Below are positions 8,084-35,284 of a stretch of 64,000 bases of DNA, one piece after another. The translations under genes were made by a program, and so were the position numbers. This DNA is from Peptostreptococcus sp. MV1 (GTDB taxonomy: Bacteria > Bacillota > Clostridia > Peptostreptococcales > Peptostreptococcaceae): assembly GCF_000758885.1 (NCBI RefSeq), contig NZ_JRNB01000058.1, positions 1 through 64,000 on the forward strand. Reading direction: 5' to 3'. The notes under the pieces were generated by a model, which saw only the letters and a program-made list of their open reading frames with translations, was not told the DNA's origin and searched no databases. Numbering within the stretch: the first letter of the stretch is position 1; the number at the start of each line of letters is the position of its first letter.

Positions 8084-9982
8084 ATGAAGGTATTTTTAAG
8101 GAAATTTATGGCTATGACCATTGCTATTACAATGGTAGTGGGACTAGTTCCATATAGTTTTGCTGACAATGGAAATGTGAGTGAGGATGTTTCTAGAGTA
8201 GAGGCAAGTAGTATGACTGATGGGGAAGATGCTGATGCAAGAAGTATGGAAATAAAGCTTGGTATGGCAAAGTTTGATCAGGATGGTAAGATAATTGAAG
8301 AAGTTGATCCTGAGGAAGACGAAATGACATATGAAACAAAGTTAGATGCCAACTATGCCAAATCAAATGCTAATGTGTCCTATTTGTATGGTAGTGACAG
8401 GTATGAGACATCTATTAAAGTTAGTAAGTCTGCCTATCCAAACGGGTCCGATTCCGTGGTTTTAGTTAATTCATCAAGCGCTGTATACGGTTTGATTGCA
8501 ACACCATTTGCCGCTCTAAATAGGGCTCCGATACTCTTAACATCTGCAGAATCAATAAAGCCAAGTGTGCTTGCCGAGATACAGAGATTGAGACCAAAGA
8601 AAGTGTATTTAGTAGGCGATAGAAGTCATATATCAAAGGGGATTTCTAATGCGATAAAAGCAAATACAGGGGCTGAGATGGTTAGAATTTTTGGCCAGTA
8701 CCCAGGTGATATATCAGCTGCAGTAGCTGAAAAAATACATGAAAGTCACAGGGTTGATACAGCATATGTAGTAAGTACTGAGTATGGTGTAGCAGATGCC
8801 TTGTCTATTTCTTCGATAGCAGGCAAGACCAAGGCACCTGTAATAGTTGCTAGCAAAAATTATGTGAATGCTAGGGCTTTCAAGTATCTAAATGATTGTG
8901 CCTATAATGTATACTATATAGGAGGACAGGATTCTATTTCTAGAAACCTAATAAATAAAATAAGTTCAGTGGTTAGGAATGGCGGACAGTCAAATAGAAT
9001 ATATGGTAATGATAGGTACCAGACTAACATAAATGTAATCAATAAATTTTATAGAAATAATGATATAAAGAGTTTGATAGTAACAAAGGCTGAAAATAGT
9101 GGTTTGATAGATACGGTAAGTGCTGGACCATTCGCTACACTGAAATCAGGGCCAATTCTGATAACTCATAGGTACAAGCTATCAGATGCTTCTCAGAATT
9201 TCTTAAATAGCGTTCAAGGTAATACCATCTACCAAATAGGTGGGGGGATTAGTAGTGCTGTTACTAATCAAATTAAGTCAAGTTTTCAGTCTAGACCAAT
9301 AGCTAACAGGAATGTAGAAAAAGTTCCTGCACCAAGTGTGGGCAATGAAAATACTAAGCCTAGACCTAATCCTGGCCCAAGTAATGATAATGAAAATGTA
9401 GCTCCGACTGGCAAGGGTATAAGGGGGAAGACAATTGTTATTGACCCTGGTCATGGTGGTAAGGATTCAGGCGCAGTTGGACTGTACGGATACAAGGAAA
9501 AAGATTGGACCTTAAAGACAGCTATGGCCTGTGCAGACTATCTTACAAGGGCAGGTGCAAGGGTAATAATGACTAGAAAGAATGATACGTATCCTACACT
9601 TCAAGATAGGGCAGATATTACTAACAGTAACAAGGCTGTTTTCTTCTGTAGTATTCACTACAATAAGGGCGGAGATATAATAAACTCAGATACAGGTGAA
9701 CTGAGTGGTAGAGGTGTAGAAGTATTTACTGGTAGCGGTAGTTTTGCCCAGAATAGTGCGAGAAAGGTACTGAATAGTATATTGTCAAAATTTAATTTGA
9801 AAAGCAGGGGAGTAAAAGATGGTACTCACCTATATGTTATAGCTAATACAGTATCACCTGCTATACTAGTAGAATGTGGATTTATGTCTAGTTCTCATGA
9901 TGTAAGTCTCTTGAAATCAGATCAAGCATTAAGAACTATGGGTATACAAATAGCCAAGGGTATAATTGAAGGATTTAACTAG
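8084..9982 (+). CDS. CWB2-anchored N-acetylmuramoyl-L-alanine amidase
   Basis: A secreted 632-residue peptidoglycan hydrolase. The signal peptide ends near residue 27 (SFA|DN). An acidic spacer of about 70 residues is followed by three CWB2 modules (about 96-410: YGSDRYETS, then a degenerate central copy, then YGNDRYQTN, with LVGD and IGGG turns). A Pro/Asn linker leads to an Amidase_3 domain (about 447-632). The zinc and catalytic residues are all present: His457 (DPGHGG), Glu472 (YKEKDW), His525 (SIHYN), Glu597 (VECGF). The domain plan matches C. difficile Cwp6. The CWB2 part should hold it non-covalently on a wall polymer while the amidase trims stem peptides from MurNAc. Confidence 0.92.
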   Translation: MKVFLRKFMAMTIAITMVVGLVPYSFADNGNVSEDVSRVEASSMTDGEDADARSMEIKLGMAKFDQDGKIIEEVDPEEDEMTYETKLDANYAKSNANVSYLYGSDRYETSIKVSKSAYPNGSDSVVLVNSSSAVYGLIATPFAALNRAPILLTSAESIKPSVLAEIQRLRPKKVYLVGDRSHISKGISNAIKANTGAEMVRIFGQYPGDISAAVAEKIHESHRVDTAYVVSTEYGVADALSISSIAGKTKAPVIVASKNYVNARAFKYLNDCAYNVYYIGGQDSISRNLINKISSVVRNGGQSNRIYGNDRYQTNINVINKFYRNNDIKSLIVTKAENSGLIDTVSAGPFATLKSGPILITHRYKLSDASQNFLNSVQGNTIYQIGGGISSAVTNQIKSSFQSRPIANRNVEKVPAPSVGNENTKPRPNPGPSNDNENVAPTGKGIRGKTIVIDPGHGGKDSGAVGLYGYKEKDWTLKTAMACADYLTRAGARVIMTRKNDTYPTLQDRADITNSNKAVFFCSIHYNKGGDIINSDTGELSGRGVEVFTGSGSFAQNSARKVLNSILSKFNLKSRGVKDGTHLYVIANTVSPAILVECGFMSSSHDVSLLKSDQALRTMGIQIAKGIIEGFN

Positions 9983-26525: not shown

Positions 26526-27488
26526 CTAGTAGTCAATATCGTCAAATATAAACTGCTTTAAGAATTTTGTAGACACTGGGTCATATCTAATTACCCATCC
26601 GTGTCTACCATATATACCGTTAGTAGTATATTGTGGATTATCAACTAGTGGGAATTCTTTTTGTTTTATATTGTCAGTACCTATTCTAAGCGCATCTATT
26701 CCTATCTTAATCATATTTGTTGGAGACATACTAGAATCTATATATGGGGCTGCAGCCCTTAGTATCATAGGATACTTCAAAATAGATGTGTCCTTTATCT
26801 CCTTCATAATACTAGATACAATCATTCTTTGTCTATTATCCCTACCAAAGGCAGAATCATTGTGTCTGATTCTGGCAAATGACAAGGCCTGGTAGCTATT
26901 AAGCTTTTGGGTTCCAGCGTTTTCTACTAGCTTCATTGGCCCCTTGTCCTTATTTGTAGACCATGAATATGTCTCCGGTATAAACTTGTTGAGTTCAGCT
27001 ATTTCATTTTGAGTAACGTCTACTGTAACTCCACCAAGACTATCAATAATGGCCATAAATGATTGGAAGTTGATCATGGCAAATTCATCTATATCTATAT
27101 CAAAATTTTCTTCAATTGTCCTGATTAATAGGTCCTCTTTACCAAAGGCATAAGCGTGTGTCAATTTTGACTTGCCATAGCCGGGTATACTGACAAAAGT
27201 ATCTCTAGCTAGGGATGTTATTTTTATATCATTATGGACGCTGTCAAGAGTGACAATCATCATAGAATCTGACCTAGAAGAAGTCTCTCCAGGCCTAGCA
27301 TCCGTTCCCATAACAAGGATATTTTTGATGCCATCTGCATGCATATGTGACTTGTCATGAAGACTACTTGTATTGAGGTCTTTATTATGGACGTCTTTTA
27401 GTATAGAAGTAGTTAGGGCAAAGGCTCCAATTGGTAGCAATATGACTAATACAAGTAAAAATCTGACGAAATTTCTGAGTTTAAACAT
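26526..27488 (-). CDS. LCP (LytR-CpsA-Psr) family wall-polymer ligase, copy 1
   Basis: Transfers lipid-linked polymers onto peptidoglycan at the outer face of the membrane. The 320-residue protein has a short cytosolic start, one membrane helix (about 7-27) and the LCP domain: ILVMGTDARPGE, SRSDSMMIVTLD, ITSLARDTFVSIPGYG, KLTHAYAFG, DSLGGVTVDV and LSFARIRHND..GRDNRQR. These include the Arg/Asp residues that bind the pyrophosphate-lipid head group. Start ATG with SD AGGTAGGTG. It is a paralogue of the gene at 27782. C. difficile has a similar LCP pair that attaches the CWB2-binding polysaccharide PSII; the same job is inferred here. Confidence 0.9.
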   Translation of the reverse strand: MFKLRNFVRFLLVLVILLPIGAFALTTSILKDVHNKDLNTSSLHDKSHMHADGIKNILVMGTDARPGETSSRSDSMMIVTLDSVHNDIKITSLARDTFVSIPGYGKSKLTHAYAFGKEDLLIRTIEENFDIDIDEFAMINFQSFMAIIDSLGGVTVDVTQNEIAELNKFIPETYSWSTNKDKGPMKLVENAGTQKLNSYQALSFARIRHNDSAFGRDNRQRMIVSSIMKEIKDTSILKYPMILRAAAPYIDSSMSPTNMIKIGIDALRIGTDNIKQKEFPLVDNPQYTTNGIYGRHGWVIRYDPVSTKFLKQFIFDDIDY

Positions 27489-27781: not shown

Positions 27782-28822
27782 TTAATAAGCAACAGACATA
27801 TATTCCCTATCTCTAATATACTGTGTTTTGTTTCCGGCCTCTTTCCACAATTGCTGGGCTGTTGTGATTTCTCCCGGCGTAGGTTTTATATTGTCAAATA
27901 TATACTTGTGAAGCAAGTCAACCTCATAGCTCTCAAACGGTATTACATAGCCAGACTCTGGAAGTCTAATCTCATTTTCCGGGTGAAGAGGGAACTGCAT
28001 AGTATCAATAGTCAAGTTACCTATTGATAGGACATCCTTACCTAAATACATAATATCTGTAGGATTCATATTAGTCTTTACATATGGCTTGACAGCATCA
28101 AGTAGTTTAGGATACTTGGTTATAGAAATACCATTTACCTTGTGGATAATCGCCTCTATTACCTTTCTTTGCCTATCATCTCTTTGCATCGTTCCGTCAC
28201 TCTTTCTGATTCGAGCATATGTAAGAGCCTGGTAACCAACTAAAGTCTGCCTACCAGATTTTTTGAATTCCTTTATTGGACCATTTTTATGGTCACTCCA
28301 ATAGTAGCACTCAGTGACAAACCTATTTAGCTCAGGAATTTCTTGTTTCTTGACATCTATCTCGATGCCACCTAGGGCATCAACTATATCCATAAAGGAG
28401 AAGAAATCCACCTTAGCATAGTTCTGTATATCAAGTTTAAAGTTATCTTCTATAGTTTGTATCAACAATTTTTCCTTACCGTATGCATATGCATGAGTCA
28501 GTTTTTGGTAGCCATGATCAGGTATCTTGACATAGGTGTCCCTACCAAGTGATGTTAATTTTAGTTTTTTATGCTTGTTATCCACAGTCAATATCATCAT
28601 GGAGTCTGACCTAGCCACTTCCTCACCAGGTCTGGCATCACTACCAACCAAAAGTATATTAATAATCTCATTATCGAACTTGTATTTATTTGAAGTCAAC
28701 ATATCAAAATTACCATTTATTTGCATGCTTTTTAGCTTTGAATAGACAACCCCGGCAAAAGTAACTGGGATTGCAACGACTAGGACTGCTAGAAAAATCA
28801 CGAATTTTCTAAGAGCAGACAA
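27782..28822 (-). CDS. LCP family wall-polymer ligase, copy 2
   Basis: A 346-residue paralogue of the adjacent LCP gene. Membrane helix at about 6-27, then ILLVGSDARPGE, ARSDSMMILTVD, LTSLGRDTYVKIPDHG, KLTHAYAYG, DALGGIEIDV and LTYARIRKSD..QRDDRQR. It has a C-terminal extension of about 25 residues after the conserved domain (TAQQLWKEAG...). The start is a TTG with SD AAGGTGAT; no ATG fits. Two LCP copies may serve different polymers or back each other up. Confidence 0.9.
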   Translation of the reverse strand: MSALRKFVIFLAVLVVAIPVTFAGVVYSKLKSMQINGNFDMLTSNKYKFDNEIINILLVGSDARPGEEVARSDSMMILTVDNKHKKLKLTSLGRDTYVKIPDHGYQKLTHAYAYGKEKLLIQTIEDNFKLDIQNYAKVDFFSFMDIVDALGGIEIDVKKQEIPELNRFVTECYYWSDHKNGPIKEFKKSGRQTLVGYQALTYARIRKSDGTMQRDDRQRKVIEAIIHKVNGISITKYPKLLDAVKPYVKTNMNPTDIMYLGKDVLSIGNLTIDTMQFPLHPENEIRLPESGYVIPFESYEVDLLHKYIFDNIKPTPGEITTAQQLWKEAGNKTQYIRDREYMSVAY

Positions 28823-28983: not shown

Positions 28984-29772
28984 ATGGTAAAATTAATAAC
29001 AGTAGATATGGATGGTACATTTTTAAATGACAATAAGGAAATGAGTCCTGAATTTGATAGGGTATTTAAATCCTTGAAAGAGAAACAAATAAAATTTTGT
29101 GCAGCAAGTGGTAGGCAATTGGCTAGCCTCAAATCTGTATTTGATGAATATAAGGATGAGATGCTCTTTGTAGCTGAGAATGGTGCTGTAATGGAAATAG
29201 ACGGTCAAGTAATTATTAATGCGACACTTACTAGAGATGTAAGTGATAGATTTTTGAATAGACTAAAGCAGTTAGACGATATGAGAATTCTGTATTGTAC
29301 ATCTGATTACTCATACATAGACAGGACAGATGAAGAGTCTATGGAAAATGCTAGAATGTATCTTCCTAAGTTTGGTATAGTAAAAGATTTTACTAAATTG
29401 GATAAATTACCAGTCAAGATATCTGTACATTCAAAAAATGGTTATTACAACGATTTTAAATTGTTGGTAGAGGAGTTTTCTGATGAAGCCAGCATATGTA
29501 CATCGGGCTTTGATTGGTTGGATATTGTGCCTAAGGGAACCAACAAGGGGACTGCTATAGCCAAGATGCAGGATATGCTTGGAATTAGCCCTCAAGAAAC
29601 AATGGCCTTTGGTGACCAGATGAATGATTTTGAAATGATTAACCAGGCCTACTATAGTTATGCTATGGACAATGCCATAGATGAAATTAAACAGATAGCT
29701 AGGTATACAGCTCCTAGTAACAATGAATTTGGTGTAGTGTCAACCATTAAGGAAGTATTTTCTATTGATTAG
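28984..29772 (+). CDS. HAD-superfamily phosphatase, Cof type
   Basis: A 262-residue cytosolic sugar- or nucleotide-phosphate phosphatase. Motif I VDMDGTFL (Asp8, Asp10), motif II AASGRQL (Ser), motif III Lys in KGTNKGTAI, and motif IV FGDQMNDFEMI with the metal-binding Asp residues. The C2-type cap between motifs II and III (about 85-185) marks the Cof/YidA subfamily. Substrate cannot be told from sequence. It is followed after 13 nt by the amidase-like gene and probably shares its transcript. Confidence 0.88.
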   Translation: MVKLITVDMDGTFLNDNKEMSPEFDRVFKSLKEKQIKFCAASGRQLASLKSVFDEYKDEMLFVAENGAVMEIDGQVIINATLTRDVSDRFLNRLKQLDDMRILYCTSDYSYIDRTDEESMENARMYLPKFGIVKDFTKLDKLPVKISVHSKNGYYNDFKLLVEEFSDEASICTSGFDWLDIVPKGTNKGTAIAKMQDMLGISPQETMAFGDQMNDFEMINQAYYSYAMDNAIDEIKQIARYTAPSNNEFGVVSTIKEVFSID

Positions 29773-29785
29773 TAAGGAGTAGATT

Positions 29786-30799
29786 ATGGGAAAGAAGGTT
29801 AAAAGAACACATAGGGGGTCTAGTAATAGAAGGATCAGTAGTCATAATAAGCCTAGTCAGCGCCAAAAAAGGGGCAATAGAAGTGGCAAGAAAAAAATTA
29901 TAAAGTCTAGGCTATTTTTGATGCTATTTATCGTATTCATCTTCTTCTTTGCAGTAGGAAGGCTGGTATGGACTGGTCACAAAAATGCCCAGGCCAAAAA
30001 AGCCTTGGAAGAGGCTCAAAATCAGAAGTCAATAGAGGTTATGGAAGAAAAAAAGAGGAATGTCATAAATGTAGCAATAGATGCTGCCAAGGGTGGTATA
30101 AACGAAGGTATGACAGCCTATAGAGGCAGTCACAAAGAAAAGGATATAAATCTAGAAATAGCAAAATTTATAAAAGATAATTTATCAGGTCAGGAAGATA
30201 TAAATGTGATAATGGTTAGAGCCTATGACGAGGACAAAAAGTTAGCAGATAGGGTAGCATATGCTAAAAAAAATCAGGCAGACCTCTATATTTCTGTAAG
30301 ATTAAGTGCCCAGTCTGGTAGAAATGATGCCTCGGGTATAGATACCTACTATATCAGTCCAGAAAACATTGACTATAGTTCTCTTGATAAGTCGAAAGAG
30401 GAGTCTGCCAGCAAGGATATTAAAACTAATTCGAGTTCAAATGAGCTAGTTGGTAAGGACGATATAAATGAAAAAAGCAAGTCTGAAAAGGAAAAGACTA
30501 TTAAACCAGAGAGAGATAACTTATCTAAGCTTTTGGCAGAAAATATTCAAAATACGACCATATCCTACATAGAAATGAGGGATAGGGGTATACTAGATAA
30601 AAAATTTGATATATTAAACTATACCCAGATGCCGGCTGTAATAGTCCAGTGTGGCTTTATCAGTAACAAGGATGATGCTGAAAAGTTGGAAAATGAAAAG
30701 TACCAACAAGATATAGCTCAAGGTATCAGTGAAGGCATACTAAAGTTTGTGGATGAAAATAGGAAGGCCATAATAAAGGACAGGATAAACTATAGGTAG
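29786..30799 (+). CDS. Membrane-anchored Amidase_3-like protein with degenerate active site
   Basis: A 337-residue protein: a very basic N-terminus (1-45, many Lys/Arg/Ser), one membrane helix (about 47-63), a coiled Ala/Glu segment, then an Amidase_3-like domain (about 92-330). The fold is well kept (NVAIDAAKGG, SHKEKDINLEIA, DLYISVRLS, GIDTYYI, PAVIVQCGFISN), but three of four catalytic positions are replaced. The first zinc His is Lys102, the second His is Arg172 and the catalytic Glu is Gln288; only Glu118 remains. An acidic/Ser-rich insert lies at about 195-245. It is probably a non-catalytic wall-binding or regulatory relative of amidases. I see no frameshift or stop, so it is not a pseudogene by decay. 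Confidence 0.8.
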   Translation: MGKKVKRTHRGSSNRRISSHNKPSQRQKRGNRSGKKKIIKSRLFLMLFIVFIFFFAVGRLVWTGHKNAQAKKALEEAQNQKSIEVMEEKKRNVINVAIDAAKGGINEGMTAYRGSHKEKDINLEIAKFIKDNLSGQEDINVIMVRAYDEDKKLADRVAYAKKNQADLYISVRLSAQSGRNDASGIDTYYISPENIDYSSLDKSKEESASKDIKTNSSSNELVGKDDINEKSKSEKEKTIKPERDNLSKLLAENIQNTTISYIEMRDRGILDKKFDILNYTQMPAVIVQCGFISNKDDAEKLENEKYQQDIAQGISEGILKFVDENRKAIIKDRINYR

Positions 30800-33349: not shown

Positions 33350-34003
33350 ATGTTAGGCGATATTATAAGATATAATTTTTTTGCACTAGATGATGTAGAT
33401 TATGAGACATTTTCTCTAGACTACGCAGTTGTTTTGGATATAGATGAAGACAAAAATACTGTAAAGATTTTGCCTATATCTAATAAATTTAGCAAGGATT
33501 GTATAGAGTCTTTTTGTATAGGTTTTATTCCTGGATTTGTAGAAATCAAGAATGAAGGCTATGTAAGTAACAAGCAGTATGTACACTTTAGTAAGGTTAT
33601 CGATGTGAGGCCAGACGAATTACATCCAGTACACGTACAGGATTTGAGTGGGGCTATAGCAAAGGATGACAAGGGTAGTCCAATCAGTGTTGCCCTAACA
33701 GATGACCAGTTGGAGAAGATCTTGAGAAAATACAAGATATACGAAATTGGTGAGGAAAGAAACCTAATTAATCTGTTGATGAAATCAGATGCCCAGTTTA
33801 TGCTAGCTGATTCTAATGAAATGGACCAGATTCGCAAGGTATGCAACAAGGAAATGGATAAGTACAGGGAATACAACTTTAAGGATAAGAAGGTCATAGT
33901 TTTCTTCGTTGGAGGTAAACGTTATTCAGTTGTCATGGTTCCTACTGACAACAAGGACCTATCATATAGAAATGAAAGTCTTAAGCTTGCCTTGGCTAAT
34001 TAA
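33350..34003 (+). CDS. Unknown cytosolic protein
   Basis: 217 residues, no signal peptide or membrane helix; I do not recognise a family. The N-terminus (GDIIRYNFFALDD..YAVVLDIDEDKNTVKILPIS) has the rhythm of a small beta-barrel and loosely recalls PemK/MazF-like folds, but the key residues of those toxins are not evident. The C-terminal half is charged and partly helical (DQLEKILRKYK, NEMDQIRKVCNKEMDKY), ending in a short strand pair VIVFFVGGKRYSVVMVP. A good SD (GGAGGTG) and its own promoter and terminator show a real, separately expressed gene. Confidence 0.6.
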   Translation: MLGDIIRYNFFALDDVDYETFSLDYAVVLDIDEDKNTVKILPISNKFSKDCIESFCIGFIPGFVEIKNEGYVSNKQYVHFSKVIDVRPDELHPVHVQDLSGAIAKDDKGSPISVALTDDQLEKILRKYKIYEIGEERNLINLLMKSDAQFMLADSNEMDQIRKVCNKEMDKYREYNFKDKKVIVFFVGGKRYSVVMVPTDNKDLSYRNESLKLALAN

Positions 34004-34239: not shown

Positions 34240-34270
34240 AGTAGATATTTATGAAATGGAGGTGGATTTT

Positions 34271-35284
34271 TTGAATTTATTCAAAAAGGCAGTTGTTGCT
34301 AGTTTGGTCCTTGCCATGACGATGACAGTTGGATGTGGCAACAATAAAAATGCTGATACCAACAGTAGCGATAAGAAGCAAAAAATCGAATATATAACAG
34401 AGATTACTAAGGACAATGTAGAAGAAGTGGTTATTGAATATAAGGAGATATTGTCATACTATAATGACCTCAAGAATAATTTGAAGACTATAAGTGATGC
34501 TAGCAAGAATCCTGATCTTGAGAGTGACCTAGTTACAGCTAAAGATTCAATAAAGAATGGACAGACTCTTTTGGCTAGCACTGATACTAAATATAAACCC
34601 TTGAAAGAGGCCAAGGAGATACTGAAAAAAATGTATGTCAAGTCTCTTGATATGTCAGACCATGTATTAACTGATTCTGTAAAGTATAAGGAAGAGCTAA
34701 AAGATTATGATGTCCTATTTAAGGATTTCAAGGAAAAGATGGATAAGATAAGACTTGATATAGAAAAAGTAAGAGGTAAATCGCCTAAGCAGAAGGATGA
34801 CCAGCCTATAACAGATGAAGTAGACAAAAATAAAAAAACTGATCTGAATGCTGACAAGAAGCAAGAAGATAGTTCAAATAAGAATACAAATAATGATAAG
34901 TCTGATGATTCTAGTAGAAGGTCTAGTAATAAAAATAATGATGAAGACAGGTCTGAAAGAAATAGTAAACCTTCTAACACATCTAAGCCAAGTAGAAACG
35001 AATCAAACCAATCAAATAGAAACGGTTCGAATTCAAACCAGGACCAGGGATTTGTTCCAAGGGTTTCTAGTTTAAATAATAGTTTGAGAAGTGAAATAAG
35101 GAGTGCAGGTGCAAATGCAGGCGCTAGTTTCAAACAGGGAGGCGGTAATGAGGCCCAGTTAGAATCAGCAGCAACTCAGATGTTCAATGACTTGGAGGGT
35201 GATAGTCCTATCCAGGGTAGTCAGTTATCAGAGGCAAGAGCCATATTTGTAGAAGCCTTTAAGGCAGCTTTCTATGGAAACTAA
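34271..35284 (+). CDS. Putative lipoprotein of unknown function
   Basis: 337 residues starting with TTG 34271; the in-frame ATG at 34256 is part of the SD region (ATGGAGGTGG), so it is rejected. A lipoprotein-type leader ends at TMTVGC, giving a lipid-modified Cys. A helical domain follows (about 30-165, ITKDNVEEVVIEYKEILSYYND...). Next is a long Ser/Asn/Lys/Asp-rich disordered linker (about 170-260). A C-terminal helical region, LNNSLRSEIRSAGANAGASF to EARAIFVEAFKAAFYGN, completes it. No known domain recognised. Monocistronic between its own promoter and terminator. Confidence 0.7.
   Translation: MNLFKKAVVASLVLAMTMTVGCGNNKNADTNSSDKKQKIEYITEITKDNVEEVVIEYKEILSYYNDLKNNLKTISDASKNPDLESDLVTAKDSIKNGQTLLASTDTKYKPLKEAKEILKKMYVKSLDMSDHVLTDSVKYKEELKDYDVLFKDFKEKMDKIRLDIEKVRGKSPKQKDDQPITDEVDKNKKTDLNADKKQEDSSNKNTNNDKSDDSSRRSSNKNNDEDRSERNSKPSNTSKPSRNESNQSNRNGSNSNQDQGFVPRVSSLNNSLRSEIRSAGANAGASFKQGGGNEAQLESAATQMFNDLEGDSPIQGSQLSEARAIFVEAFKAAFYGN

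Follow-up and report, generated by a model that had tools for sequence, protein, structure and literature searches.

Replacement of the catalytic residues in a CD2761-type Amidase_3 protein of Peptostreptococcus and its probable role as a wall-binding protein

The locus and the layout of the protein

The window, a 64,000-nucleotide stretch of Peptostreptococcus sp. MV1 (contig NZ_JRNB01000058.1, positions 1 to 64,000), contained a gene for a 337-aa protein that followed a HAD phosphatase gene and a ribosome-binding site (Table 1). The first-pass annotation had called the frame full length, and it was open throughout. The protein matched Pfam Amidase_3 (PF01520) with 138.3 bits (cut-off 27; E 3.6e-40) over residues 96-319, corresponding to positions 1-173 of the 174 in the profile, and its nearest solved structure was 4RN7. 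The spore CwlD profile TIGR02883 gave the protein 94.3 bits, below the cut-off of 221.55.

Table 1. Features of the pseudo-amidase locus and of the CWB2 amidase in the window.
Feature	Position	Strand	Basis
Secreted CWB2 amidase, HEHE set intact, possible partner	8084..9982	+	Alignment; Pfam
HAD phosphatase gene (Pfam Hydrolase_3), directly upstream	28984..29772	+	Upstream of the amidase in 9/9 species of the genus
Ribosome-binding site AAGGAG, 6 bases 5' of the ATG	29774..29779	+	Read off the sequence
Pseudo-amidase gene, 337 aa, CD2761 orthologue	29786..30799	+	ORF; Pfam Amidase_3; synteny and tree
Basic segment at the N-terminus (residues 1-41); disorder and an intracellular location predicted	29786..29908	+	Charge +17; low pLDDT
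Transmembrane helix, residues ~42-62	29909..29971	+	Hydropathy; helix 40-91 in the model
Amidase_3 domain, part 1, residues 94-190	30065..30355	+	Pfam; 4RN7 alignment; AlphaFold2; Foldseek
Lys102 codon, first zinc His position	30089..30091	+	Alignment
Glu118 codon, kept zinc Glu, invariant across orthologues	30137..30139	+	Alignment
Arg172 codon, second zinc His position	30299..30301	+	Alignment
Genus-specific charged insert, residues 191-245	30356..30520	+	Orthologue length comparison
Amidase_3 domain, part 2, residues 246-325	30521..30760	+	Pfam; 4RN7 alignment; AlphaFold2; Foldseek
Gln288 codon, catalytic Glu position	30647..30649	+	Alignment
Genus-specific C-terminal tail, residues 326-337, consensus IIKDRINYR	30761..30796	+	Conserved in 8/9 Peptostreptococcus species, absent from other orthologues

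A membrane anchor and a basic N-terminus had also been read from the sequence earlier. Both were real, but they were common to orthologues with an intact His-Glu-His-Glu (HEHE) set. A basic cytoplasmic segment, a transmembrane helix and a long juxtamembrane helix would suit a transmembrane sensor, in which wall fragments are bound outside and a signal is passed inside by the basic segment. The HEHE orthologues had the same N-terminal architecture, however, which is therefore not special to the inactive form; moreover, the N-terminal segment was short, disordered and weakly conserved. A sensor is improbable on these grounds.

Gene neighbourhood and orthology with CD2761

The gene order was the same in all nine Peptostreptococcus species, namely: two LCP genes (a single one in one of the species), the HAD gene and then the amidase gene. 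HPr and PtsI genes were downstream of the amidase in eight of the nine. The HAD phosphatase and pseudo-amidase genes, with ~13-14 bases between them, are probably co-transcribed.

Most other Peptostreptococcaceae genera also had orthologues, and neighbouring genes were shared with them, the HEHE genera included. One orthologue (from genome G061) matched 4RN7 with 100% identity across 185 aa, and 4RN7 is the zinc-binding CD2761 of C. difficile (PMC8496864). Synteny and this identity therefore identify the Peptostreptococcus protein as an orthologue of the zinc-binding amidase CD2761; it shares the conserved neighbourhood and the single-transmembrane architecture that define the CD2761 group. 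Outside the family, the matches listed covered mainly the amidase domain and mostly lay within larger proteins.

Several further genes were recorded around the locus. The two LCP (LytR-CpsA-Psr) genes of the window (26526-27488 and 27782-28822, minus strand) were divergently upstream of the amidase, and the presence of LCP genes near the amidase in many genera suggests a wall-assembly neighbourhood. In most genera, a conserved ~550-aa protein resembling an N6 DNA methylase was encoded 3' of the amidase gene (L063:3831-5486 plus 42 further loci); the window lacked it at the corresponding position. All nine Peptostreptococcus species encoded, near the locus, a 217-aa protein (33350-34003, plus strand, in the window) for which Pfam gave no match. 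The gene at 34256-35284 (plus strand) encoded a probable lipoprotein whose long linker is rich in Ser, Asn and Lys; it likewise had no Pfam match.

Catalytic residues across Peptostreptococcus

When the protein was aligned with 4RN7 and with every orthologue, Lys102-Glu118-Arg172-Gln288 fell on the Amidase_3 set His-Glu-His-Glu. The earlier reading that three of the four catalytic residues are replaced was thus correct: Lys102 and Arg172 occupy the zinc His positions, Gln288 occupies that of the catalytic Glu, and Glu118 is kept. The His-Glu-His zinc ligands were missing from all nine species, which had Lys or Arg, Glu, and Arg in their place (Lys-Glu-Arg here), and the catalytic Glu was missing throughout the genus, with Gln or His at that position. 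The combinations were K-E-R-Q (three species), K-E-R-H (five species) and R-E-R-H (one species). In each of the nine the gene was present in the same genomic place with its frame intact. By hand count, ~37 columns were invariant in the 32 HEHE orthologues, and ~27 were kept in at least eight of the nine Peptostreptococcus species. Three of the four catalytic columns were among those lost from every species of the genus.

The closest pair within the genus, two KERH species with 85% identity over the whole protein, gave a dN of 0.045 and a dS of 0.34 for the amidase domain (dN/dS 0.134, p 6e-11); this within-genus value comes from one close species pair, the remaining pairs being near saturation. 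Values were 0.04-0.13 in other changed clades and 0.03-0.13 in HEHE clades. Because the gene was intact and its residues replaced in nine of nine species, with the domain under purifying selection, the sequences place the catalytic loss in the ancestor of Peptostreptococcus, as an old and fixed change and not as decay. The suggestion of a selected pseudoenzyme is supported by these replacements, frames and dN/dS, and the last two rule out a recent pseudogene. It had also been proposed that HEHE homologues, by revealing a recent loss, would refute this suggestion. Such homologues do exist in other genera, but the replacement is genus-wide, so that the loss is older than the radiation of the genus and is not recent.

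Insert, tail and predicted structure

The insert was 43-91 aa long in the nine Peptostreptococcus species and 5-8 aa in all other orthologues. In the alignment it coincides, in position only, with the regulatory insert of the Gram-negative amidases AmiA and AmiB. In the AlphaFold2 model, pLDDT was >90 for the greater part of the domain and low for the insert, and residues 40-91 formed a single long helix. Foldseek matched it to 4RN7 (TM 0.93 by target), CwlV (1JWQ; 0.95, 1.2 A) and LytH (7TJ4; 0.91 by target). Lys102, Glu118 and Arg172 probably form a salt-bridge cluster that replaces zinc, which would explain why Glu118 was never lost and is invariant across all orthologues.

The CWB2 protein at 8084 had been taken for a true amidase, and its intact HEHE set agrees with this. 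An HEHE CWB2 amidase was present in all seven Peptostreptococcus genomes scanned with the Amidase_3 profile, and it was 20-42 kb from the pseudo-amidase in the six genomes that had both on one contig. This co-occurrence permits an interaction. As the earlier reading had suggested, the inactive domain could regulate true amidases: it might bind one of them, for instance the CWB2 enzyme, or compete for its sites, and set the place and time of cutting in an EnvC-like manner, and the position of the insert relative to that of AmiA and AmiB would fit. However, the CWB2 amidase is secreted whereas the pseudo-amidase is membrane-held, and a separation of 20-42 kb says little in 2-Mb genomes. We regard control of an active amidase as unlikely, though likelier than the other alternatives.

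The same genome encoded two more HEHE Amidase_3 proteins of ~294 aa (L004, G000:C59:10498-11022; L005, G000:C105:2538-3062). Both were on small contigs and are possibly of phage origin.

Loss of the catalytic set across the family

The family orthologues numbered 55 after two partial sequences were excluded; 32 had the HEHE set and 23 were changed. Outside Peptostreptococcus (g1), the changed sets were: CEHQ in g9 (three); HEHQ, DEHQ and REHQ in g14 (six); REQK in g18 (one); HEQE in g13 (one); HEHK and HEEE in g11 (one each); and HEHQ in g23 (one of three). The strong cases among these are g1, g9 and g14, as the states seen in single genomes could include sequencing errors. A broad set of 78 Amidase_3 proteins from many phyla, fetched by a pattern whose last position could be Glu, Gln or His, comprised 77 with HEHE and one exception, P. 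canis. Against this background, a replacement shared by nine of nine Peptostreptococcus species exceeds chance.

On an orthologue tree computed without the catalytic columns, the HEHE or changed label required six changes by parsimony (5-7 across bootstrap trees), four of them forced by well-supported branches. A single origin of all changed members was rejected (p-AU 0.0002). One origin for Peptostreptococcus, g9 and g14 together was not rejected, with a p-AU of 0.12, or 0.19 when two long branches were left out. Going by this tree, several relatives lost the cutting chemistry separately; as nine Peptostreptococcus species nevertheless keep the protein, it probably has a second, non-cutting job at the wall. 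Rates of change relative to neighbouring genes showed no clear difference for the methylase-like neighbour, and the PtsI sequences probably included paralogues.

Metal may still be bound by relatives with the sets HEEE, HEQE and CEHQ. The CEHQ and HEEE cases, and the retained fold and groove framework of the Peptostreptococcus protein, would favour an enzyme of altered chemistry that uses another metal, say, or a metal-free site. Against this, both His residues and the catalytic Glu are absent from all nine species, and the catalytic position holds Gln in some of them and His in others, a variation ill suited to a new fixed active site. An altered enzyme is accordingly a very improbable outcome.

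Sporulation and the second UppS-type gene

CD2761 is controlled by sigma-E in C. difficile (PMC3789822). Profiles for Spo0A, sigma-E and CwlD found none over the cut-off in any of the nine Peptostreptococcus genomes or in the g23 genomes. Both observations would be in keeping with a dispensable gene that is decaying slowly, as might follow the loss of sporulation. However, two of the asporogenous g23 genomes had the HEHE set, and g9, g14, g18 and g13 were changed yet held Spo0A and sigma-E; loss of sporulation was therefore neither needed nor sufficient, and as a cause it does not match the distribution of the changed sites. With nine intact frames, a dN/dS of 0.13 and a conserved tail that was gained, decay of the Peptostreptococcus gene is hardly credible.

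A second, divergent UppS-type cis-prenyltransferase gene was directly upstream of the amidase in 29 of 32 HEHE loci vs. 3 of 23 changed loci. Its product scored ~130-156 bits in most genomes, compared with ~300 for the main UppS (example: L086:6187-6831). The gene was absent genome-wide in g1, g9 and g23, and was located elsewhere in g18 and most of g14. It may mark a pathway that needed the cutting activity. The raw counts that link its adjacency to catalysis are strong, but the link was not significant because the tree holds only three changes.

Proposed role

The account that we favour, and hold to be probable, is that of a membrane-anchored, non-hydrolytic wall-binding or scaffold protein that arose from a CD2761-type amidase by loss of catalysis. 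The CD2761-type orthologue kept its Amidase_3 fold while the two zinc His residues and the catalytic Glu disappeared in the ancestor of the genus; purifying selection has continued to act on it, and the charged insert and the conserved C-terminal tail were gained. The single transmembrane helix would place the domain outside the cell, at the membrane-proximal face of the wall. There, to judge by its residues, the domain should be unable to hydrolyse the MurNAc-L-Ala bond. As a non-catalytic module it would use the old groove, the insert and the tail to hold nascent uncross-linked peptidoglycan or a wall-assembly partner. Since catalysis was lost repeatedly, this binding or scaffold role may well have been present already in the active ancestor.

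A broader proposal, which we put forward tentatively and with somewhat more doubt than belief, is that the main function of CD2761-type amidases is free of catalysis, so that hydrolysis was dropped at least 4-6 times. The end state in Peptostreptococcus would then be an extracellular binding protein with Lys-Glu-Arg in place of zinc.

Related genomes that carry an active or an inactive orthologue at one and the same locus constitute a natural experiment on the cutting and the binding role of a membrane amidase. Nor should every protein annotated 'N-acetylmuramoyl-L-alanine amidase' in this set of genomes be taken for a wall hydrolase.

Comparison with known systems

The closest known protein is CD2761 (PDB 4RN7), which shares the syntenic position, the basic N-terminus, the single transmembrane helix and the Amidase_3 fold. 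It differs in having HEHE and zinc, whereas the Peptostreptococcus protein has K/R-E-R-Q/H, the insert of 43-91 aa and the new C-terminal tail. A literature search on Amidase_3 pseudoenzymes found nothing on the CD2761-type family.

The best-known pseudo-amidase of the Amidase_3 fold, and the closest precedent, is the cytoplasmic CwlM (Rv3915), a mycobacterial regulator of MurA. Its zinc His residues are degenerate (Arg), its acidic ligands are kept, and its amidase site is dispensable for its essential function (PMC4946905). K-E-R-Q fits that published description, with its change of His to Arg and its kept acids. According to a report cited in PMC4946905, CwlM was once found to have amidase activity even though it is short of zinc ligands, which speaks against reading inactivity from residues. 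CwlM is phosphorylated by PknB and has PG-binding domains; the Peptostreptococcus protein comes from another phylum and is predicted to lie outside the membrane, not in the cytoplasm, its transmembrane segment being preceded by positive charge.

For location, the closest active model is LytH of the LytH-ActH pair of Staphylococcus aureus (7TJ4), a membrane-bound Amidase_3 protein of the membrane-proximal wall that has a membrane partner (PMC13104630). LytH is catalytic, whereas the Peptostreptococcus protein is without the catalytic residues. Among the neighbours of the pseudo-amidase gene at its locus, no ActH-like gene was noticed.

EnvC, as cited in PMC4946905, is a protein of the wall-hydrolase (LytM) fold whose catalytic function was lost and which works through binding. 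Degenerate LytM proteins of the EnvC type differ in their fold and are Gram-negative; what they have in common with the Peptostreptococcus protein is the loss of catalysis in a wall-hydrolase fold.
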